64,000 nt of DNA from positions 42,432,208 through 42,496,207 of the forward strand of contig OX463806.1 of NCBI GenBank assembly GCA_949825045.1, in the 5' to 3' direction. Positions 3,669-62,343 of the stretch are shown in pieces. The stretch's first letter is position 1; each line of letters begins with the position of its first letter. Source of the DNA: Argyresthia goedartella (lineage: Eukaryota; Arthropoda; Insecta; Lepidoptera; Argyresthiidae). The notes beneath the pieces are model-generated. The model searched no databases and was not told the origin of the DNA. It saw only the letters and a list, made by a program, of their open reading frames with translations. The position numbers were made by a program, and so were the translations under genes.

Positions 3669-4141
3669 ATGATTAACAATGAAATGGAAGACTAAGACCA
3701 TGTCAACACGAAAACAGTCGTTAGGGCTTACCAGAGTGAGATCAGATTTCTGTTTGCAGACAAACAGATTAAAGGCGCGTTCTGCAGCTCAGGTGTTACC
3801 GTCTCGGCCGACCTGGCCTATAAGCGTTTGTTTTGGTTGTTTAAATGAGCGTGCACAGAGCCGGCGCTTACTAACTCACTAAAATTAAATTTGCTGCCAA
3901 ATAAATGTGTGTGAGCTTCAGAATGAGGCGCCTATCAAATCCTTAGTCAAAATGTGCCAGTTTGTCAAAACGTTTGTGGTGAGTGGGAAAAATCATGGAT
4001 TTAGGGCGACTTGCACCAGAGTTTTGACAGCCACTAAATATAGTTCAAATACAACTTCAGTACAATACGGTCAAGATCATTGCCTTTCATCCAGATTCCC
4101 ACTTTGTTAAGTGTACCCCAAGAACGTGTATCTGTATAGTA
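3669..4141. other. Intergenic, nothing identified
   Basis: Two short overlapping frames exist but neither resembles a known protein, and no repeat family was recognised. Confidence 0.45.
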
Positions 4142-4386
4142 TATAATAATAATAATACCTTGGACACTATTTACACACATTGATCTAGCCCCAAACTAGG
4201 ATTCCCTGTATCTTGGGTACTAGACAACGATACCATACTTATATGGATAAATATTATACTTAGATAGATAAACAACCATGACTAGGGTACAAACATCCGT
4301 TCTCGTCAAATAAATATTTTCCCCCACCGGGACTCGAACCCGGGACCCTCGGCTTCGTAGGCAGGGTCACTGCCATTCGGGTCGTC
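4142..4386 (-). mobile_element. tRNA-derived SINE, family A, copy 3
   Basis: Near-consensus copy with TAATAATAATAATACC at the tail, the conserved body, and the head with B-box complement GGACTCGAACCC. It ends at the GGGTCGTC head terminus and abuts the decayed LINE that follows. Confidence 0.88.
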
Positions 4387-5258: not shown

Positions 5259-5560
5259 AGACACACCGCTGCCGGCCTTACTTCCAAAAGTATAAGATCC
5301 TAACATTACGTTCAAGCCATTTTCTGGAAGCATGTAGGTTCGTCTACTATACAATACACACGAAGAGGAGAAATCAATATTCTTTCACTAAGACATCATA
5401 ATAAATGGGTGTGCCCACAATCTAGATTACTGCTAGAAACAAAAAATGCCTATGTCATGCCATGCCAATAAAAATATACAGAAAATTACCTAAAAATATG
5501 AAAATCGTAGACGATGAACACAAAAAAAATAAAAAAAATAAAACACTTCTTGGGGGCCTA

Positions 5561-10208: not shown

Positions 10209-12347
10209 CAAATTCCTAGCTGTCAGAATTAGATGGAAATACTACCGTTCCTGTCAAATAAAATTACAGTCGCTATAAATGACAGCTCCAGTAAAATAAT
10301 CGCGCTCTGATTGATCAAACCTAAATTTGCCGCCTAAATCCTTAATTTTTTATTCTTCGGGGTCGATTCATTTCGAACGCTACTGATGTCCCTCTGCAAC
10401 AAAGCCGGGTAAAAAGGACGAACGAGGAACGGTGTAACGTTACAAAACAGGTTTCGGAACGATCTGCAAACATTCTCGTCGGGACTAGAAAGACGCTGGG
10501 ATCTAAATGCCGAAGCCTACTTATGCTTAGAACGTTAATTAAAAAAAAGTGGCGCTTTAATGTTTTAATGACGCTGTCATTTCCTGAGCGAGAGAGAATG
10601 ACCGCATGACGTTAACTGACCGTCAAAAGTAAAAGTTGAGTTGACAGCATCCGGGCCGCAACGATGTATTGATATCATAAAACTTTGACACTTACGTAAT
10701 TTAGGTATCTTAAAAATTTAGTGACATACCTACTTAGATGAATAAAATGGATGACGTCATGATGAAGGGTCATCGTCAGATCAGGCCGTCAATGTCATGT
10801 CGATTTTATTTATTGGCACCTGGACCTCGTTATGGGGCCTCGCAATTTTGAACCTTATGCCATAGTAATAAAATTCAAAACCAGGGGGTTAAAGCGCTGG
10901 GTATTGTCAAATGCCAAATCCAGAAAAATAGGTATATGTTATGAAAACATCTCTTGCCTTTAATCGTATTAAGTGAAAACATCATAATGACAATGGATAC
11001 TATATAGATGGATATAACTAATAGATGAGTTTCACCTAAAACGTATTATTCCATGATATCTATAAGGTGATAACTAGGTCTATAATATATGGTTCTTGCG
11101 GCAAAAATTATTCAATTAATATTAAATTCAATATATCGTAAAACTTATGTTGTTGAAATGATTAAAATAATAAAAGTTTAGGAAAATAAATAAAAAATCA
11201 CACAATTTTCTCATTTTTCTGCCGCAGCGGCCGACGTGACAGCTATCTTGCATTTGTTTATGGTTTTGACCCAAATCTCAACCAACCCGAATCGAGTTGC
11301 TTATCTTTCCGATACAAGAGCCTTAACGGCATAATGCTCAAACTGCTGCTCAATTTAAGTGCGCCATCAATGTCATATTTTCCAGAGCTGTCTGCTCCTT
11401 TCCTAACGAAAGCATTTCGTCCTCCAATTTCTGAATTGAGAATTTCACTATCAAATACTTAAGAATCACTCTGTCTCTGCAGAAGTCAAAAAAAAAAGAA
11501 CGGGACAAACCGACACTTAAGTATTAAATTAGTGAATTTCCAATTCAGAAACCGGTAGCTATCAATCTAAACTTGACAATTATGCTAGCCATGTATTTCA
11601 TTAGGAAAATTACAGCAGAAGCACATAAACCTACCCAAAAATGTAGTTTCGTTTGGTTGTCCCGAATGTCACTGTCTGAGAAAGACAAATTTCCAACCAA
11701 ATATTATCAGAGATTTGTTCGGGTAATTTATTTATAGGTCGCAACTCAGTCTCTTATTTACCTAATTCGTTGCAAATGGGTACCTTATCTGCATTTTTTA
11801 TTTAGTGTTGTGCAAGTATTGGAATCAGACGGGTCAAGCACGATAACCAAGCAGATAACCGACGAAAAAAAGAACATTTTCGGTACTTTATCGTCTCGAC
11901 TTGACAAAAATTCGCTGGTCGTGATTTTATTAAACTTGTTGACAAAATGTTACGCTAAATGATACTTACCTACAAAGTGATTACCTGCAGGTAGAATTGC
12001 TCTCTTCACGGATTATCATTCAGAAAGTGGTTAAAACTGTATTACGTAGGTAATAAATGAACAGCCCAGAATAGGTTGGGAAATTAATTAACCCGACTAA
12101 AATTTTACTAAACATTTATAATTCTTACATCCTGTTTATACGGATTAATAAACTACTTGTATGACTAGTTTTGAAGTGCTACAAAACAAATGACAGATTA
12201 GCGGACCAAAGTTTGCTTAAGCAATGATATCATAATGGTACGAGCTATTTCTACTTGTAGTGTAAGAAACGGTTAAATGAACCGTCCTACTTACCTATAA
12301 AACAAGAATTCATAATAGTGATCATTACGTACATGAACGTAGCCTAT
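10209..12347. other. 2.1 kb without genes
   Basis: No reading frame of note. The sequence is mostly unique-looking, apart from short phrases common in lepidopteran repeats. Possibly intron or intergenic spacer. Confidence 0.45.
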
Positions 12348-12563
12348 TAATGACCCCACAAAGGGGCACAGGCCTTTACCCAAATTTGAGTAAGATTAAG
12401 CCTTACTCCATTAAGTAGCGATAGTAGCCGGGACCTACTACATAACGTGCCATCCGATTCATTGAACGTCCGATAAAGTAATTATCTCATTGGTACATGG
12501 TCAGGATTCGAACCTGCATCTCCTGAGTGAGAAGCCAGCGTGAAACCCATTAGACCACGGTAT
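12348..12563 (-). mobile_element. tRNA-headed SINE, probably family B
   Basis: On the minus strand: A-box-like GTGGTCTAATGGGTT, B-box GGTTCGAATCC 36 bases on, then a degenerate family B-like core and GGTAAAGGCCTGTGCCCC. The tRNA-like part is too diverged to be a tRNA gene. Confidence 0.65.
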
Positions 12564-12589
12564 TTTAATTTTTAATAATAATAACAATA

Positions 12590-12692
12590 AACATTGTTTA
12601 TTGATAAAAGCTTACAACTTTTTTATGGTGTGTCTAGACCTCCACACAAGGATTCCTTGTGTCGTGGGGACCAGTCTGTTTCGCTTGTTGTT
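12590..12692 (-). mobile_element. SINE family D tail fragment
   Basis: Contains CACACAAGGATTCCTTGTGTCGTGGGGACCAG, whose final part resembles GTCGTGGGAACCAG in the tRNA-headed element at 18.2 kb. Confidence 0.4.
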
Positions 12693-12786
12693 ATCTTATA
12701 AATGTATACATTTTAATTAAATAGAAAACATTTAATTCTAACATGCACACCGACAGCTGATCAATTATTGGTTTTCATTCTGCGAC

Positions 12787-13016
12787 GACCCGAATGGCTG
12801 AGTCGTCAGTGACCCTGCCTGCGAAGCCAAGGGTCCCGGGTCCGAGTCCCGGTGGGGGCAAATATTTGTTTGATGAGAATGGATGTTTGTCTAGTCATGG
12901 TTGTTTATCTATTTAATATAACATGTATCTATATGAGTATGTGTGTCGTTGTCTAGTACCCAAGATACAGAGAATCCTAGTTTGGGGCTAGATCAATGTG
13001 TGTAAATAGTGTCCAA
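12787..13016 (+). mobile_element. tRNA-derived SINE, family A, copy 4
   Basis: A complete head starting GACCCGAATGGCTGAGTCG, B-box GGTCCGAGTCC, and the conserved body to GTGTCCAAAG. The TTA tail is replaced by an A-rich run at 13015-13040. Confidence 0.87.
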
Positions 13017-13074
13017 AGAAAAAAAAAAAAGAAAAAAAACTTATTACTATTATTTCCAGTATGTAAGTAATGAA

Positions 13075-13632
13075 CAAGAAAAATCACGGGGTCTTCTGAC
13101 ATTAGACTTTTCGGGCATTACCACAAAAAATACTACTGTTCAACACTTGTTCAAAAATAAAAATGTATGGGATTTGACGTTTGTTTTGAGGTAAACGATG
13201 TTTTTTGTGGTAACACGGTTAGACTCGCGAAAGTTAGCAATTATTTCAAGGGTCAGTGCATTTTCTACTACAACGAGATACCTCTGGAGATTTTGAAATT
13301 GATTTTGAAATTGCTCAAATCATTTTCAAAATCATGTAAAAGCGACTTGGGGAATAACAATGTACAATTACTAAAAAGACGGGTCTGTATGTATCTAACT
13401 CAACCCTAATATTTTTGTAAATATTTATTCATGCTTATTATTTAGTTATATATTATATATTTATATATTATATTATTACTGTAATAATTATATTAATTAA
13501 ACACAACCAACTTTTAAACGAGACCTAACATTTTGCTCCCACAGTAGCCAAATGTCGAGAAGAGGCAAAAAATTACGTTTGCTAAGCATAAGTAAATATT
13601 TGCAGTAATAAAGAAATTTTTGATTTTGATTT
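13075..13632 (+). pseudogene. Jockey-like LINE (family J3), 3' end only
   Basis: A 5'-truncated copy. The conserved C-terminal pattern RLAKVSNYFKGQCIFYYNEI is at 13221-13280, then the 3' untranslated region and a (TTTTGA)n tail near 13615-13632. Better preserved members of the family are at 37.5-38.3 kb and 47.2-48.8 kb. Confidence 0.8.
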
Positions 13633-13833
13633 ACCGAATAACCGATTACAGTAGGTAATTTAACATAACATCACAAAGAGTCACGTCTATTCCCATATGA
13701 TTATTTACAATGGCACAGCTGTGGCCACGTTTAGATCTTGCATAATTTATGTTAGTTCAATGCCGATTAAATTATTTTTTATAATATTTATCATAAAATG
13801 AATATTTGATTATGAACTTTTGTAAAATAATAC

Positions 13834-13936
13834 ATGAAACAAGTGATCAAGCTTACTACTTACTACGTAGATACTGTAGTAGATACAGATGCTGCTCAGC
13901 AATATCCTGTGGAGTTCCTAAATGCGCTCAACACAC
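13834..13936 (+). pseudogene. Helitron helicase fragment 1
   Basis: Encodes DAAQQYPVEFLNALNTP, matching the well-known YPxEFLNSL block of Helitron helicases that precedes the GLPPHxLxLKxGxPV block. It is broken after the P codon by a foldback insertion; the gene resumes at 14184. Confidence 0.8.
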
Positions 13937-14183
13937 CAGTAGCCTTATGGCGTAACTCTCTGAAGTTCATAGCGTGTGTCTATGGTTCATCTCATACTCA
14001 TACAATTTCATCGATTGCGGGGTATCACCGAAGGCTTCTAGGCTTCATTCAATGAGCTTGGGTTTGGCCTCCATTATGATGCTACTTGCGTGACAATTTG
14101 ACAGATGAAGCAGGTGCAAGGTGTCAAACGTAAAAGTCTATATGAAGTTCATAGCTCAGACGACTTACGCCATAAGGCTGCTG
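13937..14183. mobile_element. Foldback/MITE inserted in Helitron helicase
   Basis: Ends are inverted repeats: CAGTAGCCTTATGGCGTAA at 13937 and the complement of CAGCAGCCTTATGGCGTAA ending at 14183. The CAG...CTG termini recall hAT-type elements, but no 8-bp target duplication was found. It lies exactly between two adjacent helicase blocks. GAAGTTCATAGC also occurs twice inside, as direct copies. Confidence 0.65.
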
Positions 14184-14434
14184 GTCTACAGTCTCACACA
14201 CTTATCCTCAAAATGGGTGCTCCAGTCATACAATCTATACACACTAGTCTAGTACACCTAAGTTATGTAAAGGGACCAGGTTACGCGTGAAATCTTACAT
14301 AAATATACCGTCATATAATAAAATATACAGTCGGAAGTACCCGTTTGAGTTTAAAAGACTATTCCCTCTTAAGGTCTGTTTCGCAATGACGATTATTGAC
14401 TCTCATGGTCAGTCACTGAAAACAGCAGGAATTT
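14184..14434 (+). pseudogene. Helitron helicase fragment 2
   Basis: Starts with GLQSHTLILKMGAPVI, the helicase block expected right after YPVEFLN. After a gap it resumes at 14287 with YPFEFKRL, LKVCFAMTI and HGQSLKTAGI, which belong to the last helicase motifs. It leads in frame into the SHGQFYVACSR motif that is the first unit of the minisatellite. Stops and missing segments make it non-functional. Confidence 0.85.
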
Positions 14435-15461
14435 ATCTCAGCCTTTCGCACGGCCAGTTTTACGTGGCCTGCTCGAGGACGAGATTGAGCTCACCTAGGT
14501 GCCTGGTCGTATTATCTCAGCCTTTCGCACGGCCAGTTTTACGTGGCCTGCTCGAGGACGAGATTGAGCTCACCTAGGTGCCTGGTCGTATTATCTCAGC
14601 CTTTCGCACGGCCAGTTTTACGTGGCCTGCTCGAGGACGAGATTGAGCTCACCTAGGTGCCTGGTCGTATTATCTCAGCCTTTCGCACGGCCAGTTTTAC
14701 GTGGCCTGCTCGAGGACGAGATTGAGCTCACCTAGGTGCCTGGTCGTATTATCTCAGCCTTTCGCACGGCCAGTTTTACGTGGCCTGCTCGAGGACGAGA
14801 TTGAGCTCACCTAGGTGCCTGGTCGTATTATCTCAGCCTTTCGCACGGCCAGTTTTACGTGGCCTGCTCGAGGACGAGATTGAGCTCACCTAGGTGCCTG
14901 GTCGTATTATCTCAGCCTTTCGCACGGCCAGTTTTACGTGGCCTGCTCGAGGACGAGATTGAGCTCACCTAGGTGCCTGGTCGTATTATCTCAGCCTTTC
15001 GCACGGCCAGTTTTACGTGGCCTGCTCGAGGACGAGATTGAGCTCACCTAGGTGCCTGGTCGTATTATCTCAGCCTTTCGCACGGCCAGTTTTACGTGGC
15101 CTGCTCGAGGACGAGATTGAGCTCACCTAGGTGCCTGGTCGTATTATCTCAGCCTTTCGCACGGCCAGTTTTACGTGGCCTGCTCGAGGACGAGATTGAG
15201 CTCACCTAGGTGCCTGGTCGTATTATCTCAGCCTTTCGCACGGCCAGTTATACGTGGCCTGCTCGAGGACGAGATTGAGCTCACCTAGGTGCCTGGTCGT
15301 ATTATCTCAGCCTTTCGCACGGCCAGTTATACGTGGCCTGCTCGAGGACGAGATTGAGCTCACCTAGGTGCCTGGTCGTATTATCTCAGCCTTTCGCACG
15401 GCCAGTTATACGTGGCCTGCTCGAGGACGAGATTGAGCTCACCTAGGTGACTGGTCGTATT
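14435..15461 (+). repeat. Minisatellite, 13 units of 79 bp, from helicase motif
   Basis: Units start at 14435, 14514, 14593 and every 79 bp to 15383. They are almost identical. The first ten have AGTTTTACG; the last three have AGTTATACG, and the final unit has GTGACTGG for GTGCCTGG. Unit 1 read in the helicase frame gives LSHGQFYVACSR, a conserved final motif of Helitron helicase. Because 79 is not a multiple of 3 the frame shifts each unit, and the open frame ends at 14577. Each unit also holds CACCTAGGTG, CTCGAG and GAGCTC palindromes. Confidence 0.95.
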
Positions 15462-15626
15462 ACCATCTCAGGGCAGAACCTCTGATATAGGTAAAAGAGG
15501 TACTTTAAGTATAAATCAAAAAATAAAAGTCTTTACAACTGTGAAAAGCAACGTAAAAAATGTATCCTCAGTTTTCAAAATTTAGAATTGGTTCGAAATA
15601 TTGTCTACAAAAAAAATTAAAGTAAT

Positions 15627-15653
15627 GCGGGCGAAGCCGCGGGCATAAGCTAG
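15627..15653 (+). other. Helitron 3' terminus: hairpin + CTAG
   Basis: GCGGGCGAAGCCGC can fold with a short loop and is followed by GGGCATAAG and CTAG|T. This matches the 3' end rule of Helitrons (hairpin about 10 bases before CTRR). Confidence 0.85.
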
Positions 15654-15929
15654 TATAATTTATATGATGCACAAGTATTTATGTGATAAGAATTAAATTC
15701 AAATCAAACTTATCGTCATTCAACTTTGATATTCAATTCATTAAATGCCCCTGGCGTAGCTTCGCATAAAATTCAAATTTCGAACACAATGCGCGACAAT
15801 GTCCGCTGCCGCAGTCTTGAATGAAATACTTAATGTTTTTATTTATTATAATAATTATATATATAATAATATATTATTATTCTGTCCATAAAACCTGCCC
15901 AATAGTTCAATGAATAGTTTAACACCGAT

Positions 15930-16258
15930 GATGTATTTCTGTTGCCGCTATAAGAACAAATACTAAAAAACAGAATAAAATAAATATTTCGAATACAACT
16001 AACGTGATTTTTTTGCTCATTTTAGCTCGATATTGATAACGGCAACAGATAGACGCTTAAAATATTCACAGAATATTGAATTATATTATTTACTTCAAAA
16101 ATAAATAATTAAATTAAAATAAAATTTATATTTAAGGGGGGCTCCAAATATACAATATACGCCAATCCAAATATACTCCAATACAACAAACGTATTTTTT
16201 GCTGATTTTATAGATCATTCGTGCGTGAGTCCTACTCGAACTTGGCCGTTTTTTTTAA
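15930..16258 (+). repeat. GGTTCCGTA-type repeat, 3' half
   Basis: Shares GTTGCCGCTATAA-AACAAATACTAAAAAACAG and the ending ACTTGGCCGTTTTTT with the copies at 23.0 and 29.9 kb, with internal rearrangement (two AATATTTAAG-like blocks). The 5' GGTTCCGTA half is missing. Confidence 0.7.
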
Positions 16259-16899: not shown

Positions 16900-16979
16900 G
16901 TTGAGCTACACGCAATCCTTGGAGCGAAGGATGGGCCGCTCTACCTTACGCTTCGCAAACGTCCCTTAGCTCAACTGAC

Positions 16980-17218
16980 GACCCGAATGGCCATGTCGGC
17001 AGTGACCTTGCCTGCGAGGCAATGGGTACCGGGTTCGAGTCCCGGTGGGGGCAAATATTTGTTTGATGAGAACGGATGTTTGTACCTTAGTCAAGGTTGT
17101 TTATCTATCTAAGTATATTTATCTATATAAGTATGTGTATCGTTGTCTAGTACCCAATATACGGGGAATCCTAGTTTGTGTGTAATTTAGTGCCCAAGGT
17201 ATTACTATTATATTATTA
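16980..17218 (+). mobile_element. tRNA-derived SINE, family A, copy 5
   Basis: Head GACCCGAATGGCCATGTCG, B-box GGTTCGAGTCC, then the body. The GGGGCTAGATCAATG segment near the tail is deleted. It ends in ATTACTATTATATTATTAT. Confidence 0.85.
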
Positions 17219-35024: not shown

Positions 35025-35243
35025 GCCGAGTCGGCAGTGACCCTGCCTACGAAGCCAAGGGTCGCGGGTTAGAGACCCGGTGGGGGCAAATATTTGTTTG
35101 ATGAAAACGGATGTTTGTGCCCTAGTCATGGTTGTTTATCTATCTAAGTATAATATTTATCTACATAAGTATGTGTATCCTAGTTTGGGGCTAGATTAAT
35201 GGGTGTAAATAGTGTCAAAGGTATTATTATTATTATTATAACT
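35025..35243 (+). mobile_element. tRNA-derived SINE, family A, copy 6
   Basis: The head lacks its first bases (begins GCCGAGTCGGCAGTGACC). B-box GGTTAGAGACC is mutated. The body is deleted around GTCTAGTACCCAAGATACAGG. (ATT)n tail. Confidence 0.85.
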
Positions 35244-40982: not shown

Positions 40983-42209
40983 TCGTGGACGTATAAAAAA
41001 ATTCGGACGTAGTCTCGCTAAGACAAAATTGAGGAACCGTCACAGATATCTCAACCAACATAGAACCGTAATGGCGGCGGATATCTATGATTGAGTGAAT
41101 TTAGGGTTGCCAAGTTAGCCAAATTTTTACCCTAATAAAACACAGAAAATAAATAAAAATATTTTAATGAGAGATAGAATAAAATAACACTGTTCCACAA
41201 AGTCCAATGGACGGTGCTGTGAATCGCTCTTGAGATCTTGCGCTTCTTTTCGCAAACGGTTCTATAAATCGAAAAATCTTTCATATTGATATTATTTTTA
41301 AAACATCTATCAAATAACGATTCACAGCACCATCTGTTGGATTTTCTGCAAAGTTTTATAAAATACCTAATGTAGATGATAAATGAATGGTTGACAAAAA
41401 ATACTAATTCGAAACTGTTTAAATTGATTGAATTGCTAAGAAACAAGATTAACAATTAACAAGAAAAAAAATATGAAATTTAAAAAAGCGCCACTTTTTC
41501 AAAATCCGACTTCAGAATCATAATTAAACTCCAACCAGTTCCCCAGATATTGATTTTGAAGAAAATCGGACCAGTCAATACGAAGTTCAAAATGACGGTC
41601 ACTTTTTCAAAATCTGACTTCAGAATAATGATTGGATTCCCACCAGAGCCCCAGATATCGATTGTGAAGAAAATGGGACCAGTAACTTCGACGTTCAAAT
41701 TTTGATCTGATGAAAAATTTAAGAACTGCAAATTTTCTTATTCGACTGAACGTATAAAAACATCTCGACCAATTAAAGAGCTGCCAAAAATAACTTCGCT
41801 CAAATAAATAATCGAATTATAATTTGAACTTAATAATACCGTATTTTCCCATATTTTTGGTAATTTTGCTTACGTGAATATTGACAACACTGGACTTGTG
41901 ATGAATTATTTTGGTATTGTGAATGAAGATTGATTTTAAATTTTTACTGGAAATAAGTGATTATTTATTCATTCACCTATAAAACGTGATTCCTGGTTTT
42001 TTTTTCCTCCGGTCAATTCGGTTTTCACACCACTTTACCACGCAAGACTTGCTGTTTGGTTTATGTATTTGTTGACGACGGCGCGCATAAGGCCGACTAA
42101 TATGTGAATGTGTGCTTGTCGGCGTGTACGTACAGCGAGCTGGCCGACTCTGAGCGACACACTTGTGTTGTAAGCGAGAATATGTCCGACTTTTTTCATA
42201 CGTCCATGA
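40983..42209. mobile_element. Non-autonomous TIR DNA transposon, 1.23 kb
   Basis: Ends are imperfect inverted repeats of about 37 bp (TCGTGGACGTATAAAAAAAT / TCATGGACGTATGAAAAAAG, each followed by TCGGACxTAxTCTCGCT). CCTATG is present on both sides (40977-40982, 42210-42215). A 108-bp internal tandem duplication starts near 41492. No transposase frame is seen. Partial relatives form the inner parts of 43.07-44.12 and 61.91-62.94 kb. Confidence 0.72.
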
Positions 42210-43069: not shown

Positions 43070-44122
43070 ATAAAAATACGTATAAAAAAGTCGGACGTAG
43101 TCTCGCTTACAACACAAGTGTGTCTCTCAGAGTCGGCCAGCTCGCTGAACGTACACGCCTACAAGGACACATTCACACATTAGACGGCCAATCGGCCATT
43201 AGGCGCACAGGCGTCAACAAAGACGGTACGTTATGCGGAGAAATAAAAAGCATGTCTTGCGTGGTAAAGTGGTGTGAAAACTGAAGTGACCGGAGGAATA
43301 AAAACATCCAGGAATCACGTTCCATAGGTAAATGAATAAATAATTACTTATTTCCAAAAAATATTTAAAAAAAAATCACAAGAACAAAATAATTCATCAC
43401 AAGTCCAGTATTGTCAATATTCACGTAAGCAAAATTACCCAAAATATGGGAAAATCCAGTATTATTAAGTTCAAATTAATTATAAATCAATTATTTATTT
43501 AAGCGATGTTATTTTTGGTAGCTCTTTAATTGGTCGGGATGTTGTTGAAGGGTCAGTTGAATAAATAAAAAGGCAGTTCTTAAATTTTTCGTCAGATGAC
43601 AATTTGAACTTCGAAGTTAATGGTCCGATTTTCTTCACAATCGATATCTAGGGTTCTGGTTGGAATCCAATCATGATCCTATAATAATAATAATAATAAT
43701 ACCTTGGACACAATTTACACACATTGATCTAGCCCCAAACTAGGATTCCCTGTATCTTGGGTACTAGACAACGATACACATAGTTATATAGATAAATATT
43801 ATACTTAGATAGATAAACAACCATGACTACGGTACAAACATAAGTTCTCATCAAAAAAATATTTGCCCCCACCGGGACTCGAACCCGGGACCCTTGTTTT
43901 CGTAGGCAGGGTTACTGCCGACTCGGCCATTCGGGTCGTTAAGATCCTGAAGTCAGATTTTGAAAAAGTGGCCGCCATTTTGAACTTTGTAGTTACTGGT
44001 TCGATAGAAGACAAAATAAATCTTATTAACTATATAACGGAAAAATATTTAACGATTCGGCTTCACCACATTTCAAAATTAGAAGATATATCAAGAACCT
44101 CTAAAAGTAAAAGACACTATTT
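43070..44122 (-). mobile_element. TIR transposon portion carrying a SINE
   Basis: Starts with the TIR (ACGTATAAAAAAGTCGGACG), reads inward through sequence complementary to the 41.5-42.2 kb copy, and is split by a SINE at 43680-43938. The opposite TIR is absent. Confidence 0.7.
43680..43938 (-). mobile_element. tRNA-derived SINE, family A, copy 7
   Basis: A full copy with (ATA)n tail and head ending CATTCGGGTCGT. Flanked by GATCCT on both sides, the likely target duplication. The same insertion is present in the inverted partner at 62.09-62.34 kb. Confidence 0.9.
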
Positions 44123-50410: not shown

Positions 50411-50690
50411 AATCATAGCAGTAGGTTACCTACATGTACCTACTGATCATTAGATTGATACTTAGCATGTACAAAACTACTGATTTGTTTTTATTGTTGA
50501 TTTACATGAATCATAGCAGTAGGTTACCTACATGTACCTACTGATCATTAGATTGATACTTAGCATGTACAAAACTACTGATTTGTTTTTATTGTTGATT
50601 TATATGAATTATAGCAGTAGGGTATCTACCTGTACCTACTGATCATTAGATTGGTACCTACCATGTACAAAATGTACATGTTAAGAAGAG
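50411..50690 (+). repeat. 98-bp tandem repeats in Gypsy leader
   Basis: Units start at 50411, 50509 and 50607; the first two are nearly identical, the third is diverged and partial. Shared landmark: AGCAGTAGG-TA-CTAC-TGTACC. Non-coding, between the primer-binding site and gag. Confidence 0.9.
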
Positions 50691-51842: not shown

Positions 51843-52889
51843 TTGTACGTGTTTCATGTCGATGATGATGTGGAGTTTGGATGCAGCAATGGAGGTGTCG
51901 AAACAAAAGTGTTGATAGATTCCGGATGTAAACAAAACTTATTGACTGAAAGTACTTGGGAGAGTCTAAAAATTTCAAAGGCAACAGTCTACAACCAGAT
52001 TGCAAGTCCAAAAGTGTCATTTGTGGCGTATGGCAGTAACACGCCCTTAATAGTCAAAGGGTCTTTTGAAGCGATTATCAAAGTAGGCAGCAAATCTGAA
52101 AGCGCCACTTTCTACGTCATCAAAAATGGAACCAAAAACCTTCTAGGTAAAAACACAGCGAAGTCTCTGGGAGTCCTCAAGATTGGCTTGGATTTAGATA
52201 TTAATCAAGTTGGGTCAGAAGTATTCCCCAAGTTCAAGGATGTTTTGATTGAATTACCTATTGATGATTCAGTTCAACCAATTTCTCAGCCATACAGGAG
52301 GATATCATTATCCCTTGAAGACAAGGTCACAGCTAGAATTGAGGATTTAATTAAAAGGGATATTGTTCAAGAAGTTAAAGGTACGTCTAGATGGGTGTCA
52401 CCCATTGTCCCAATTTTGAAAGATAACGGTGAAGTGCGTGTTTGTGTAGACATGAGACGAGCTAATGAAGCCATTATTCGTGAAAATCACCCACTACCTA
52501 CAATGGATAAATTATTACCACAGGTGCGAAAAGCAAAATATTTCACAAAACTTGATATTCGAGACGCTTTTCACCAGATCGAAATTCATCCGGATTCGAG
52601 ACACATAACCACCTTTATTACCAGCAAAAGCCTGTTCAGATATAAACGCTTGATGTATGGCATTTCATGCGCACCGGAAATATTCCAAAAAACGTTGGAA
52701 AGGATACTATTGGGATGTGAAGGAGTAGTTAATTTCATAGACGACATTCTAGCCTTTGGAAAGGATTCGGAAGAGCATGATAGGAGAATCAAAATGGTTA
52801 TGCAGACCCTGGAAGAGAATAACGTAGTCCTGAGGAAAGACAAATGTCTTTTTAAAGTAACTAAAGTTAGTTTCTTGGGCATGAATTAA
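51843..52889 (+). pseudogene. Gypsy pol: protease and reverse transcriptase, truncated by frameshift
   Basis: 348 codons. Aspartic protease active site VLIDSGCKQNLL near residue 24. Reverse transcriptase: IVPILKDNGEVRVCVDMR (about 190), FTKLDIRDAFHQIEIHP (about 235), LMYGISCAPEIFQ, and FIDDILAFG (about 300, catalytic pair present). The frame ends at 52887-52889 in the VSFLGMN block, while homology carries on in another frame. The partner copy on the right arm begins within this block. Confidence 0.92.
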
Positions 52890-53087
52890 CTTGCGAAGGT
52901 GTTAAGCCCTTGCCAAAATATGTGGATACCATTAAGGACTTCCGACCACCGATGACAGTCGGAGAACTTCAAAGTTTTCTTGGACTTGTAAACTTTGTAA
53001 GCAAGTGGATCCCTAATTACGCAACCTTGACGGAACCTTTAAAACTCCTCCTGAGGAGAAAACTCTGACGGGTCCGATATCCAGAAG

Positions 53088-53684
53088 ATGTGGGGGATAC
53101 AGCAGCAGCAAGCTTTTAACGATTTAAAGTTTCGCCTTCAGAATATCCCTACTTTAGGCTACTACGATGTAAACGACCGAACGGTAGTAATAGCAGACGC
53201 AAGTCCAGTGGCACTGGGAAGTGTCCTCATACAAATTGATGATAAAGGACCAAGAGTAATCGCGTATGGGCATAAGGCATTGACTGGTTGCGAGCGCCGA
53301 TATTGTCAGACGGAAAAGGAAGCTTTAGCGCTGGTGTGGGCTGTGGAACATTTCCACATGTTTCTCTATGGCAAAGACTTTGAATTAGTGACGGATCATA
53401 AACCCTTAGAGGTTATATTCGGCCCAAAGTCCAAATCCTGCGCTAGGATAGAAAAATGGATTCTCCGCTTGCAAGCCTACAAATATAAGGTCAAATATCA
53501 CATAGGTAAAAGCAACATCGCTGATCCTTTTTCGCGACTTTGCGATTTTCCTGATCAACCGGTACCCGAACTCCAAGACAACTACGTTCATAAAATAGTG
53601 GAATACACAAGACCCAAAGCTGTCTCGATGCAAGAGATTACGCACTGTGCAAAAGACGACCAGGAAATATGTAAGGTAAAATAA
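53088..53684 (+). pseudogene. Gypsy pol: RNase H region
   Basis: VVIADASPVALGSVLIQIDD (first catalytic Asp), CQTEKEALALVWAVEHFH (catalytic Glu), LVTDHKPLEVIFG (catalytic Asp), and YHIGKSNIADPFSRL. Separated from the reverse transcriptase by frame changes and a stop (TGA near 53066), and from integrase by a TAA at 53682. Confidence 0.9.
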
Positions 53685-53744
53685 GGACTTTATAATAATA
53701 ACTGGGACGACGAAGGTAAAACTTATAAAAATTTTCAAAATGAG

Positions 53745-54617
53745 TTGTGCTTTTATGAAGATATTTTGTTGAGAGGCACAAGGATAGTTATTCCAGCTCA
53801 GTTGCGACAACGAGTCTTAGATGCGGCTCACGAAGGTCACCCTGGAATTGTAGCAATGAAGGCGAGGTCAAGGACAAAGGTTTGGTGGCCTAAATGTGAC
53901 AGAGATGCGGAAAAATTAGTGAAAACATGTAAATAATGCACGTTAGTATGTGCTCCAAACCCACCAAATCCCCTTAAGCGATGAAACTTGCCAGAAGAGC
54001 CTTTGGTCGATATCGCAATAGACTTGATGGGCCCTCTTCCAAGTAGCGACTATATCCTGGTAATCGTGGATTATTTCAGTAGATACAAAGAGATCAAGAT
54101 ATGTCGTAAAATTACTAGCACAGACATGATAAATAACCTGAAAGACATATTCAGTAGAGTCGGGTACCCGCGAACAATTACAGCTGATAATGGGAGACAA
54201 TTCGGTAGTGCGGAATTCAAAGATTTCTGTTGCGAATGGAATATTATTTTGCACAACACAATACCCTACTGGCCGCAGCAGAATGGAGAGGTAGAACGCC
54301 AAAACCGGGACATCCTGAAACGATTAAATATAAGTCAGGCGGAATCTAAGGACTGGAAAGAGAGCCTACTAGAATATCTTACAATGTACAATAGTACACC
54401 TCATACTGTGACGGGAAAAACGCCCTCTGAGTTATTTTACAGACGAAAATTCAGTTTTAAAATACCAATGATAACTGATGGCAGCGGCGCATCTGAATTT
54501 TATGCGGAGGTGAAAGAAAGAGATCAGGAATGGAAAGAAAAGGGGAAGAACTATGCTGACAAAAAGAGAAAAGCCAAAGATTGTGATTTAGAACCGGGAG
54601 ACAAAGTTTATGTTTAA
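53745..54617 (+). pseudogene. Gypsy pol: integrase, broken by stops
   Basis: An N-terminal zinc-binding piece with HEGHPGIVAMK and VKTCK (53745-53936) is followed by two stops (near 53934 and 53979), then the catalytic core (53988-54617): IDLMGPLPSSDYILVIVDYF (first Asp), TITADNGRQFGS (second Asp), and NGEVERQNRDILK (catalytic Glu). PEEPL replaces the PEEPW of the right-arm copy. A TAA at 54615 ends the frame within the C-terminal domain. Confidence 0.92.
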
Positions 54618-54620
54618 AAC

Positions 54621-54842
54621 ATGACCAAAGAAAATAAATTGAACCTGAATTACGAGCCGACTACGCATACAGTAGAAAAGAGTTTAGGGGGTGATATACA
54701 AGTTCGTAATGACGAAACAGGCCAGACTTACAGAAGAAATGTGGTACACTTGAAGAAAGTTCAAGGAGAGTGGAGAGTTTATAACAAGTATGCTGAAGAA
54801 GAAAATCATTCCGACAATGATAAAGAAACTGATGATGACTGA
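54621..54842 (+). pseudogene. Gypsy pol: C-terminal tail
   Basis: 73 codons continuing after the 54615 stop: VEKSLGGDIQVRNDETGQTY and RRNVVHLKKVQ, the small beta-barrel-like end of integrase seen in this superfamily. The acidic C-terminus ends in TGA. The same stop and tail are in the right-arm copy. Confidence 0.85.
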
Positions 54843-55040
54843 CACCGACTAATGATTGAATATTTATTGCCGTGAAAGTGAACCGCTGAAGAAGCGAAAG
54901 TTATTATATATACAAAGTATAATAACTACCTAAACATAATTATATTGATATTATTTACAATATGCAAATATTTGATTTAAAGAGTAAATTATTAATTAAC
55001 GTAATCACTAAATAAAACAAATAAATAAATAATTTAAACA

Positions 55041-55049
55041 AAGGAGAGA
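55041..55049 (+). promoter_or_regulatory. Gypsy polypurine tract
   Basis: AAGGAGAGA directly before the 3' LTR, the usual primer for plus-strand DNA synthesis. Confidence 0.85.
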
Positions 55050-55200
55050 TGTAGTGTATTGCTTATTTATGTAGTTGTCTTTGTCTCGAGCGCATACGTC
55101 AGTAATGGCGGAGAGGGACAGTTGTCGTCCGACCGTCGACCTAGTAGGTTACTGGTGGTGCGCTGACGAGCCAAATTGAATATTTTACAGTGACATTACA
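55050..55200 (+). repeat. Gypsy 3' LTR (151 bp)
   Basis: Same as the 5' LTR except GAGCC for GAGTC. Followed by GATCG (55201-55205). The right-arm LTR has the GAGCC state, so it derives from this 3' LTR. Confidence 0.93.
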
Positions 55201-55205
55201 GATCG

Positions 55206-56040
55206 CTTCGGCAGAAATGCATGCTGCGCGCCGATGACGTAAGGTAGGCATTGCGGAAGCAAAGCAGAATGAAGAACCATTTCGAACACTTTGGCAATTG
55301 CACACAGTATTGCCACTGGTCGGTGGTTTTCTATCATGGCTTTGGAACCCTTTTTAGGGATAGGAAAAACCCGCGAAATTTTCCAATCACGAGGATATTC
55401 CCCAGATAATGTTGAAAATAAATGTTATGGGGCCAAGCAGCTCATCTACGCAAACTTTAATTAAATAGGCCGAAAGGGCATCAGGGCCTGGTGACGTACC
55501 AGGTTGTTTTATTGCGGATCGGATATCGCCCGCGGTTATGTGACCAACATCTGTCCTACGGGACCCCGAGTCGGTAGCACTAGCCGGTGCAGGGTCGAGT
55601 TTCGGTTGCTGCGGCAGGAATACCGAGTGGAAGTGTTCAGCGAAAGCGGTAGCCGCCCCTGCCCCCTTGTACTCTTGATCTCCTTTGGTAACTTTAGCCT
55701 CAACACCCCCACGTGTGCGAATTGCCAAAATTTGGATGGATCTTTGTGTAGTCTGACAGAGACATCGTTAACTTATGCTCGATATGCTAACTCTGTATCC
55801 GCTTTTATTTTAGTGTGCATTAGCCAAAATTTTTTTTAACTTTGATTTTAATGTCACGGATAATTGCTCTCGTGTAGAAGACTGGATAAGTTCTACTACA
55901 TGATAGCTTCCGTATTTTCTTTGGAATGCAGCGGTCAAATAAATTGTACATAACTGTGTAAAAATAATTGATTGCACTTTCAGTTGTAGAACAACGGTAT
56001 AATTCATTCCAGTTCGTATCCTTTACCAAGTTGTAAAGAG
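55206..56040 (-). pseudogene. LINE 'A', first half (left arm)
   Basis: Minus-strand blocks: a linker (NWNELYRCSTTESAINYFYT, 55820-56029), then ATAFAEHFHSVFLP, IRSAIKQPGTSPGPDALSAY (55387-55728), and an HRPVAILCAIAKVFEMVLH-type block near 55300. Stops interrupt it. It joins 49739 across the Gypsy insertion. Confidence 0.88.
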
Positions 56041-56072
56041 TCAGTAATATTCTCGAGGCTCACGGCGAAACA

Positions 56073-56433
56073 CAAAGGTTAGGACTATTGGACCACAACA
56101 CCGCACAATTTCTCTCTGTCCCTGTGACAAATAAGCTCAAACAAGTCGGCTACTGGTATACTACAAAAAGAAATTATGGAGAGGAAAACATGGCATTTAG
56201 ATAGACTATCCTGGAGCGAAGTCCTAAATGCTATACATTTCGAAGTAGCGTTCAAGCTATTCCACGACATGATTGATTACCTTGCTGTACAATTTATGCT
56301 TCCCGATAAACAAAGTAAAGATCGAGATAATAATATGAGTCCTAAATGGCTCACTAAAGGTATATATATATAAGGCAGTCATGTCAAACAAAAAGAAAAC
56401 TCAGATATCAATACTACAAACAGAAAATAGAAG
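56073..56433 (+). pseudogene. LINE 'B', endonuclease end (left arm copy)
   Basis: DHNTAQFLSVPVTNKLKQVG, then LSWSEVLNAIHFEVAF and NNMSPKWLTKGI: the end of an endonuclease and the linker of a Jockey-like element. The plus-strand copy stops at 56433, where the spacer begins. Confidence 0.82.
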
Positions 56434-57017: not shown

Positions 57018-57372
57018 CTTCTATTTTCTGTTTGTAGTATTGATATCTGAGTTTTCTTTTTGTTTGACATGACTGCCTTATATATATATATACCTTTAGT
57101 GAGCCATTTAGGACTCATATTATTATCTCGATCTTTACTTTGTTTATCGGGAAGCATAAATTGTACAGCAAGGTAATCAATCATGTCGTGGAATAGCTTG
57201 AACGCTAGTTCAAAATGTGTAGCATTTAGGACTTCGCTCCAGGATAGTCTATCTAAATGCCATGTTTTCCTCTCCATAATTTCTTTTTGTAGTATACCAG
57301 TAGCCGACTTGTTTGAGCTTATTTGTCACAGGGACAGAGATAAATTGTGCGGTGTTGTGGTCCGATAGTCCT
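57018..57372 (-). pseudogene. LINE 'B', endonuclease end (right arm)
   Basis: Begins (minus) at LSDHNTAQF near 57372 and runs to LTKGIYI and on into the spacer without a break. This makes 57372-56455 one contiguous LINE B fragment. Confidence 0.82.
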
Positions 57373-57419
57373 AACCTTTGTGTTTCGCCGTGAGCCTCGA
57401 GAATATTACTGACTCTTTA

Positions 57420-58252
57420 CAACTTGGTAAAGGATACGAACTGGAATGAATTATACCGTTGTTTTACAACTGAAAGTGCAATCAATTATTTTTACACAGT
57501 TATGTACAATTTATTTGACCGCTGCATTCCAAAGAAAATACGGAAGCTATCATGTAGTAGAACTTATCCAGTCTTCTACACGAGAGCAATTATCCGTGAC
57601 ATTAAAATCAAAGTTAAAAAAAATTTTGGCTACTGCACACTAAAATAAAAGCGGATACAGAGTTAGCATATCGAGCATAAGTTAACGATGTCTCTGTCAG
57701 ACTACACAAAGATCCATCCAAATTTTGGCAATTCGCACACGTGGGGGCGTTGAGGCTAAAGTTACCAAAGGAGATCAAGAGTACAAGGGGGCAGGGGCGG
57801 CTACCGCTTTCGCTGAACACTTCCACTCGGTATTCCTGCCGCAGCAACCGAAACTCGACCCTGCACCGGCTAGTGCTACCGACTCGGGGTCCCGTAGGAC
57901 AGATGTTGGTCACATAACCGCGGGCGATATCCGATCCGCAATAAAACAACCTGGTACATCACCAGGCCCTGATGCCCTTTCGGCCTATTTAATTAAAGTT
58001 TGCGTAGATGAGCTGCTTGGCCCCATAACATTTATTTTCAACATTATCTGGGGAATATCCTCGTGATTGGAAAATTTCGCGGGTTTTTCCTATCCCTAAA
58101 AAGGGTTCCAAAGCCATGATAGAAAACCACCGACCAGTGGCAATACTGTGTGCAATTGCCAAAGTGTTCGAAATGGTTCTTCATTCTGCTTTGCTTCCGC
58201 AATGCCTACCTTACGTCATCGGCGCGCAGCATGCATTTCTGCCGAAGCGATC
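57420..58252 (+). pseudogene. LINE 'A', first half (right arm)
   Basis: The plus-strand copy of the region at 55206-56040: linker frame 57424-57648, RGGVEAKVTKGDQEY and DIRSAIKQPGTSPGPDALSAY (57725-58066), then VFPIPKKGSKAMIENHRPVA and an IGAQHAFLPKRS block up to the Gypsy junction at 58252. The second half of LINE A is absent on this side. Confidence 0.88.
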
Positions 58253-60653
58253 TGTAATGTCACTGTAAAATATTCAATTTGGCTCGTCAGCGCACCACCA
58301 GTAACCTACTAGGTCGACGGTCGGACGACAACTGTCCCTCTCCGCCATTACTGACGTATGCGCTCGAGACAAAGACAACTACATAAATAAGCAATACACT
58401 ACATCTCTCCTTTGTTTAAATTATTTATTTATTTGTTTTATTTAGTGATTACGTTAATTAATAATTTACTCTTTAAATCAAATATTTGCATATTGTAAAT
58501 AATATCAATATAATTATGTTTAGGTAGTTATTATACTTTGTATATATAATAACTTTCGCTTCTTCAGCGGTTCACTTTCACGGCAATAAATATTCAATCA
58601 TTAGTCGGTGTCAGTCATCATCAGTTTCTTTATCATTGTCGGAATGATTTTCTTCTTCAGCATACTTGTTATAAACTCTCCACTCTCCTTGAACTTTCTT
58701 CAAGTGTACCACATTTCTTCTGTAAGTCTGGCCTGTTTCGTCATTACGAACTTGTATATCACCCCCTAAACTCTTTTCTACTGTATGCGTAGTCGGCTCG
58801 TAATTCAGGTTCAATTTATTTTCTTTGGTCATGTTTTAAACATAAACTTTGTCTCCCGGTTCTAAATCACAATCTTTGGCTTTTCTCTTTTTGTCAGCAT
58901 AGTTCTTCCCCTTTTCTTTCCATTCCTGATCTCTTTCTTTCACCTCCGCATAAAATTCAGATGCGCCGCTGCCATCAGTTATCATTGGTATTTTAAAACT
59001 GAATTTTCGTCTGTAAAATAACTCAGAGGGCGTTTTTCCCGTCACAGTATGAGGTGTACTATTGTACATTGTAAGATATTCTAGTAGGCTCTCTTTCCAG
59101 TCCTTAGATTCCGCCTGACTTATCTTTAATCGTTTCAGGATGTCCCGGTTTTGGCGTTCTACCTCTCCATTCTGCTGCGGCCAGTAGGGTATTGTGTTGT
59201 GCAAAATAATATTCCATTCGCAACAGAAATCTTTGAATTCCGCACTACCGAATTGTCTCCCATTATCAGCTGTAATTGTTCGCGGGTACCCGACTCTACT
59301 GAATATTTCTTTCAGGTTATTTATTATGTCTGTGCTAGTAATTTTACGACATATCTTGATCTCTTTGTATCTACTGAAATAATCCACGATTACCAGGATA
59401 TAGTCGCTACTTGGAAGAGGGCCCATCAAGTCTATTGCGATATCGACCCAAGGCTCTTCTGGCAAGTTTCATCGCTTAAGGGGATTTGGTGGGTTTGGAG
59501 CACATACTAACGTGCATTATTTACATGTTTTCACTAATTTTTCCGCATCTCTGTCACATTTAGGCCACCAAACCTTTGTTCTTAACCTCGCCTTCATTGC
59601 TACAATTCCAGGGTGACCTTCGTGAGCCGCATCTAAGACTCGTTGTCGCAACTGAGCTGGAATAACTATCCTTGTGCCTCTCAACAAAATATCTTCATAA
59701 AAGCACAACTCATTTTGAAAAATTTTATAAGTTTTACCTTCGTCGTCCCAGTTATTATTATAAAGTCCTTATTTTACCTTACATATTTCCTGGTCGTCTT
59801 TTGCACAGTGCGTAATCTCTTGCATCGAGACAGCTTTGGGTCTTGTGTATTCCACTATTTTATGAACGTAGTTGTCTTGGAGTTCGGGTACCGGTTGATC
59901 AGGAAAATCGCAAAGTCGCGAAAAAGGATCAGCGATGTTGCTTTTACCTATGTGATATTTGACCTTATATTTGTAGGCTTGCAAGCGGAGAATCCATCTT
60001 TCTATCCTAGCGCAGGATTTGGACTTTGGGCCGAATATAACCTCTAAGGGTTTATGATCCGTCACTAATTCAAAGTCTTTGCCATAGAGAAACATGTGGA
60101 AATGTTCCACAGCCCACACCAGCGCTAAAGCTTCCTTTTCCGTCTGACAATATCGGCGCTCGCAACCAGTCAATGCCTTATGCCCATACGCGATTACTCT
60201 TGGTCCTTTATCATCAATTTGTATGAGGACACTTCCCAGTGCCACTGGACTTGCGTCTGCTATTACTACCGTTCGGTCGTTTACATCGTAGTAGCCTAAA
60301 GTAGGGATATTCTGAAGGCGAAACTTTAAATCGTTAAAAGCTTGCTGCTGCTGTATCCCCCACATCTTCTGGATATCGGACCCGTCAGAGTTTTCTCCTC
60401 AGGAGGAGTTTTAAAGGTTCCGTCAAGGTTGCGTAATTAGGGATCCACTTGCTTACAAAGTTTACAAGTCCAAGAAAACTTTGAAGTTCTCCGACTGTCA
60501 TCGGTGGTCGGAAGTCCTTAATGGTATCCACATATTTTGGCAAGGGCTTAACACCTTCGCAAGTTAATTCAAGCCCAAGAAACTAACTTTAGTCACTTTA
60601 AAAAGACATTTGTCTTTCCTCAGGACTACGTTATTCTCTTCCAGGGTCTGCAT
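58253..60653 (-). mobile_element. Gypsy copy 2, 3' part only
   Basis: An inverted duplicate of the Gypsy 3' part: LTR 58253-58403, integrase tail (58611-58832), integrase core (58836-59465), zinc-binding piece (59517-59708), RNase H (59769-60365), and the last 90 bp of the reverse transcriptase block to 60653. No 5' LTR, gag or protease. The cut in the reverse transcriptase is a rearrangement breakpoint; no LTR or target duplication is present there. Confidence 0.93.
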
Positions 60654-60796
60654 AAAATATTGTTGCAAAGAATTATCAACGGTTTTGACACATTTAGCCA
60701 ATCGGTCACTCACGGAAGGAATATTCCCTGAAGAATTAAAAATCTCGGTGGTAAAGCTATTGCACAAAAAAGGAGACAAAACCGATATGAGTATTT
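60654..60796 (+). pseudogene. LINE 'B' piece copied at the outer junction
   Basis: Reverse complement of spacer 56447-56590: YCCKELSTVLTHLANRSLTE then IFPEELKISVVKLLHKKGDK. Joined to the Gypsy fragment at 60653/60654 with T/A-rich overlap (TTAT/ATATT). Confidence 0.88.
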
Positions 60797-62088: not shown

Positions 62089-62343
62089 GACGACCAGAAT
62101 GGCCGAGTCGGCAATAATCCTGCCTACGAAGCCAAGGGTCCTGGGTTCGAGTCCCGGTGGGGGCAAATATTTTTTTGATGAGACTTTATGTTTGTACCGT
62201 AGTCATGGTTGTTTATCTATCTAAGTATAATATTTATCTATATAACTATGTGTATCGTGTCTAGTACCCAAGATACAGGGAATCCTAGTTTGGGGCTAGA
62301 TCAATGTGTGTAAATTGTGTCCAAGGTATTATTATTATTATTA
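62089..62343 (+). mobile_element. tRNA-derived SINE, family A, copy 8
   Basis: Complete: head GACCAGAATGGCCGAGTCGG, B-box GGTTCGAGTCC, body, (ATT)n tail, with AGGATC on both sides. Same insertion as 43680-43938. Confidence 0.9.

Follow-up and report, generated by a model that had tools for sequence, protein, structure and literature searches.

The locus holds the C-terminal end of a Helitron helicase gene, which is interrupted by a tandem array of 79-bp units and followed by a Helitron 3′ terminus. Coordinates are those of the window, the whole 64-kb stretch of DNA that was analysed. The features are as follows.

13867–13938, forward strand: helicase remnant piece 1 (VDTVVDTDAAQQYPVEFLNALNTP; tblastn with P0009, 70.8% identity, E 1.4e-4; profile 22.6 bits)
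13935–14185, no strand assigned: 251-bp insert splitting the helicase, with 24-nt inverted ends that are 92% complementary; helicase on both sides
14183–14230, forward strand: helicase remnant piece 2 (GLQSHTLILKMGAPVI; tblastn; profile 8.2 bits, E 7e-4)
14257–14432, forward strand: helicase remnant piece 3, up to the array (tblastn with P0010, segment 14257–14517, E 2.5e-25)
14433–15459, forward strand: thirteen 79-bp units, of which unit 1 is in the gene frame and encodes motif VI (TRF, unit cutting, profile)
15460–15488, forward strand: helicase codons downstream of the array (LPSQGRTSD plus part of the following codon; profile with unit 1)
15489–15601, no strand assigned: 113-bp insert with ATAT on both sides (15485–15488 and 15598–15601; sequence)
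15602–15620, forward strand: last helicase codons (VYKKN, continuing from 15488) and the TAA stop at 15618–15620 (domain score)
15625–15646, forward strand: imperfect 3′-end palindrome, core 15627–15640 (sequence)
15650–15653, forward strand: CTAG 3′ terminus, with T next at 15654 (sequence)

The Helitron remnant and its tandem array

The helicase is clear only from 13867 on, in pieces that cover approximately the last 167 residues of P0009. This extent comes from tblastn with P0009–P0018, leaving out the rows that start at 14501–15379, in the array repeats, and the rows outside 11000–16000 with E above 1. Homology to RepHel proteins is thus confined to the C-terminal part of the helicase, with tblastn E values down to 2.5e-25. 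Weak Rep-side matches at 5352–5456, on the same strand and 8.5 kb upstream (E 0.12 with P0016 and 0.30 with P0017), were not counted. No target duplication was recognised at the 251-bp insert. Pieces 2 and 3 lie in different frames, and approximately 18 residues are absent before 14335 in piece 3. The second insert, of 113 bp, falls in the last helicase codons; it is AT-rich and has no evident inverted ends. Joining the codons across it gives a domain score of 96.4 against 95.6 for the best of 2908 random joins, a narrow margin, and the VYKKN that precedes the TAA compares with an ending of VYKEVL or similar in the relatives. The Helitron copy is broken and non-coding, with the C-terminal helicase end and the 3′ terminus kept.

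Helitrons end in CTRR followed by T, and here CTAG is followed by T at 15654. The palindrome begins four bases after the TAA stop. The first-pass annotation had described a hairpin-CTAG end; the CTAG|T terminus and the palindrome are present in the sequence, but the predicted fold of 15625–15646 is no better than that of shuffles (z −0.48, with 58 of 200 shuffles as good), so that the label “hairpin” rests on sequence and position. Just past CTAG, at 15732–15779, there is a weak helicase-like stretch, FNSLNAPGVASHKIQI, matched by 4 of 18 proteins at E 0.10 to 8.7; it is perhaps a second old Helitron copy, or a chance match.

TRF, run on the 64-kb window, places the array at 14433–15462, with a period of 79, 13.0 copies, 99% matches and a score of 2032. 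The segment 14433–15459 is free of indels and consists of thirteen exact 79-bp units. TTA, which is common to the array end and the 3′ flank, stretches the TRF row to 15462, but the whole units stop at 15459. The tandem array annotated earlier at 14435–15461 is therefore real, while its exact ends have shifted, since identity runs from 14433 and whole units to 15459. The thirteen near-identical units of that annotation are found both by TRF and by unit cutting. There are three distinct unit types among the 13, with a mean pairwise difference of 0.68%. Units 1–10 are identical, and the last three differ from them at one or two bases, units 11 and 12 by T>A and unit 13 by T>A and C>A. Ten identical consecutive units are hard for short reads, and the duplication could be real while the count of thirteen is an assembly artefact; we consider this very improbable, as the three unit types follow one another in order, with two of them restricted to the 3′ edge. 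Variant units at the 3′ edge are what is expected when the inner units are homogenised. Because homogenisation resets divergence, the low divergence of the units does not date the birth of the array.

Folding of the 79-bp unit was no better than that of shuffles (z −0.61 and −0.88), and unit structure was rejected on this ground as a driver of expansion. Two smaller tandem arrays were reported by TRF in the window, at 50411–50672 (98 bp × 2.7) and 41492–41699 (108 bp × 1.9). Elsewhere in the window, an inverted repeat at 52798–56372 and 57081–60655 has arms of 3575 nt that are 99% complementary and 708 nt apart. It carries pol reading frames in both orientations, Gypsy-like by our own reading of the ORFs, and represents either a genuine palindromic insertion or a fold-back in the assembly. 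A dispersed tRNA-like (SINE-like) repeat occurs at 12785–13016, 16978–17210, 35025–35219 and 62102–62324, with reverse copies at 1561–1799, 4136–4374 and 43771–44019; one copy is called tRNA-Arg by ARAGORN (16980–17053). Rfam, at gathering thresholds, returned nothing in the 64-kb window.

Helicase motif VI and the gene frame around the array

Unit 1, read in the gene frame, gives YLSLSHGQFYVACSRTRLSSPRCLVV, and by profile the 34 preceding codons are also helicase. The translation contains SHGQFYVACSR, which is helicase motif VI. A single stop-to-stop frame, 14248–14577, passes from helicase sequence into unit 1. In a protein search, eight of 12 candidates had E values of at most 1e-3 (best 1.3e-16), among them one from Parnassius mnemosyne. 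A search with the read-through region retained 10 of its 13 candidates, including long RepHel proteins named from Lasioglossum, Temnothorax and Centruroides. PF05970 is present in all 10 of these proteins and PF14214 also in seven. Since Pfam gave just a weak match to Herpes_Helicase (E 0.063, below the cut-off), a profile was built from the relatives found, 18 in number, using only the last 210 residues of the long proteins. Unit 1 scores 23.5 bits against this profile, and 2000 shuffles of it reach at most 8.8. The first-pass annotation had read SHGQFYVACSR as the final helicase motif and had named loss of homology in a profile search as the observation that would tell against it; at 23.5 bits, the homology is kept and the identification holds.

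The frame 14248–14577 also matches Helraiser (7lcc) at E 6.7e-6, the top of the 12 PDB sequences listed at E ≤ 1. By our count back from the end of the printed alignment, the arginine of ACSR aligns with Helraiser residue 1457. In excerpts of the Helraiser study, this residue is the arginine finger of motif VI, and its mutation abolished transposition (PMC4778049). At the variable residue, units 1–10 encode F and units 11–13 encode L. All 10 relatives with printed sequence have F, and L is found in the more distant Helraiser and, by our own reading of the alignment, in L001, the contig stretch described below. The F type of units 1–10 is thus probably ancestral and the L type of units 11–13 derived, with some uncertainty because Helraiser and L001 carry L.

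Past the array, the helicase frame resumes and reaches the TAA at 15618–15620, just before the palindrome and CTAG|T. The peptide LPSQGRTSDI (15460–15489) matches LAPEGRT and the like in the relatives. Codons 15460–15488 alone are too short to be significant (profile E 2.6). The left flank, 14332–14433, scores 52.6 bits by itself, and the flanks with one unit score 89.2 bits. When the right flank was placed after unit 1, giving these 89.2 bits, none of 4854 random 30-base stretches did as well in its place, the best reaching 88.7. The array had been placed between the helicase and the 3′ hairpin; this is wrong, in that approximately 15 gene codons and the 113-bp insert separate the array from the stop. 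The array thus sits among helicase codons, with single-copy flanks that are collinear with the unit and a unit that is homologous to the element, as in a transposon-derived minisatellite. The broader claim, that a coding motif has become a tandem array inside a rolling-circle transposon, agrees with these data: the unit is helicase code and the remnant ends in CTAG|T.

The gene continues in the same register before and after the array, so the array grew in place; this reading draws on the profile scores of the flanks with unit 1 and on the comparison with random stretches. The reverse order of events, an older satellite that gained its helicase match by later capture or gene conversion, is hard to reconcile with unit 1 and both flanks forming one collinear helicase stretch. 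Moreover, none of the proteins searched, where the candidates were short proteins only, is related to the peptide that spans the unit junction. No observation speaks positively for an older satellite, and we regard it as extremely improbable. Relative to close relatives, a 3-residue loss and a 2-residue gain are located in the unit itself, and since both are part of the unit they predate the expansion; the second row of alignment A1, being in the wrong frame, was left out of the comparison.

The 12 extra units amount to 948 bp, a multiple of 3, and the frame is consequently the same before and after the array. We take this agreement as chance, given the stops inside the array. A coding role for the array was rejected: because 79 is not a multiple of three, each unit displaces the reading frame, and of any three consecutive units two are read in a wrong frame and run into stops. 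The array is therefore non-coding.

Proposed birth of the minisatellite

We propose, with a probability of about 0.85, that the array arose where it stands, through duplication of a helicase segment present once, with slippage between short repeats within the gene as the seed and ordinary expansion and homogenisation afterwards. The founding step would be as follows. During replication, a strand would slip between two near-repeats approximately 80 bp apart, TTATCTCAG at the unit start and TTACCATCTCAG just after the array. Having copied TTACCATCTCAG, the strand would re-pair with TTATCTCAG approximately 80 bases back, with three bases looped out, giving a 79-bp duplication. Growth to thirteen units would then proceed by slippage or unequal exchange between whole units, with the inner ones kept identical.

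The seed at TTATCTCAG and TTACCATCTCAG is a candidate suggested by the sequence at the array edges. The unit junction lies at TTA, which occurs in the gene sequence to the left of the array (AATTTATCTCAGCC) as well as to the right (GTATTACCATCTCAGGG). ATCTCAG, a 7-bp match, is present at both array edges, offset by three bases, with both sites within the gene. As an edge repeat this match is weak: one as long was seen in 442 of 20000 random draws 79 bp apart (~2.2%), and an alignment score as high in 1030 of 20000; draws landing in 14300–15600 were skipped yet still counted among the 20000. Minisatellites have flanking repeats of 5–10 bp according to Haber and Louis, as told in excerpts of PMC6947457, and the ATCTCAG match is in line with this. 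Two further observations tell against a slippage seed. The exact homology at the unit junction is just 3 bp. Further, an incomplete last unit is given as the key sign of one slippage model in the excerpted text of PMC3389668, and in the present array the final unit is full-length, the repeat continuing past it only for TTA.

The pre-expansion DNA had to be inferred from proteins, because no array-free related copy was present in the viral and prokaryote contigs scanned. Whether these contigs were scanned for the unit, for the 3′ end or for the helicase, no usable Helitron DNA came of it (55, 0, 0, 0 and 3 stretches, none confirmed), and in a phage search all records listed (10 of 255) were below 60% identity. 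One of 33 stretches lies in VBAU01000223.1 (L001:44-289), a contig labelled as a Bacteroidetes MAG, and codes for the end of a Helitron-like helicase with 54% identity to P0001; the contig is possibly a wrongly binned eukaryotic one.

An alternative source of the repeats is rolling-circle transposition itself: synthesis would have stalled close to the 3′ end and copied the same stretch again, and the array would have arrived with the element. The distance of approximately 190 bp from the array end to CTAG would suit such an event, as would the proposal, in excerpts of PMC4778049, that the 3′ hairpin pauses the helicase, and internal repeat blocks are described in non-autonomous Helitrons and Helentrons (PMC4683698 and PMC7492417, in the parts available). 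However, the array edges are ordinary gene sequence with short repeats, for which transposition is not needed, and the rolling-circle and circle products described in the available parts of the literature repeat whole elements, not a 79-bp internal piece. We therefore consider this origin quite unlikely. Rolling-circle synthesis as the cause, and carriage of the array to new sites by the Helitron, had both been suggested at first pass, and neither finds support at this locus, where there is no clear Rep domain and the 5′ end was not located.

Comparison with known systems

Excerpts of PMC6947457 and PMC3389668 tell of minisatellites that originated within transposable elements at short direct repeats flanking the unit, as described by Haber and Louis and, for Alu-derived cases, by Jurka and Gentles. 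As in those minisatellites, the unit here comes from the element itself, candidate short direct repeats stand at the edges, and growth by slippage or unequal exchange is proposed. Unlike them as excerpted, the present array derives from a Helitron helicase frame, three bases interrupt its edge repeat, and its last unit is complete.

Satellites from transposon coding regions include those from Tnp2 of the CACTA-like Jozin and from LINE-1 ORF2 (PMC9659126, Table 1, as excerpted). These share with the present array a transposon coding sequence that is now a tandem unit. In contrast to these satellite families, there is here one short array, known from one locus.

Helitrons and Helentrons with internal repeats are described, in the parts of the sources available, from Drosophila (PMC9659126), oyster (PMC7492417) and rice (PMC4683698), and Lepidoptera Helitrons with an internal (CTGT)n run in PMC4344730. 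The array resembles those of DINE-1, HINE and other repeat-bearing Helitrons in that tandem repeats lie near the 3′ part of a rolling-circle element (excerpts of PMC7492417, PMC4683698 and PMC4344730). However, in the oyster elements, as excerpted in PMC7492417, the repeats separate two modules and are shared by many copies of the element, whereas the present array breaks into a run of helicase codons. The HINE and Helentron central-repeat layout has the array between two modules, with subterminal inverted repeats; in the present case helicase codons flank the array on each side. It is conceivable, though unlikely, that members of a mobile non-autonomous Helitron family have the motif VI array in common as an internal component, and that the array seeds tandem arrays genome-wide; if so, the transposon’s own helicase code would be its spreading satellite. 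In the available parts of the literature on Helitrons with tandem repeats, we met no array of Helitron helicase code, which is a weak negative.

The array itself is probably neutral debris. The case is a clean example of a known process, the turning of transposon sequence into a minisatellite, and not a new kind of element. With it, the coding regions of transposons that have become tandem repeats come to include a Helitron helicase reading frame. The birth of the minisatellite is still legible here, and because the donor gene, both flanks, the unit, the junction and the candidate edge repeats can all be read, its founding step can be proposed in detail.
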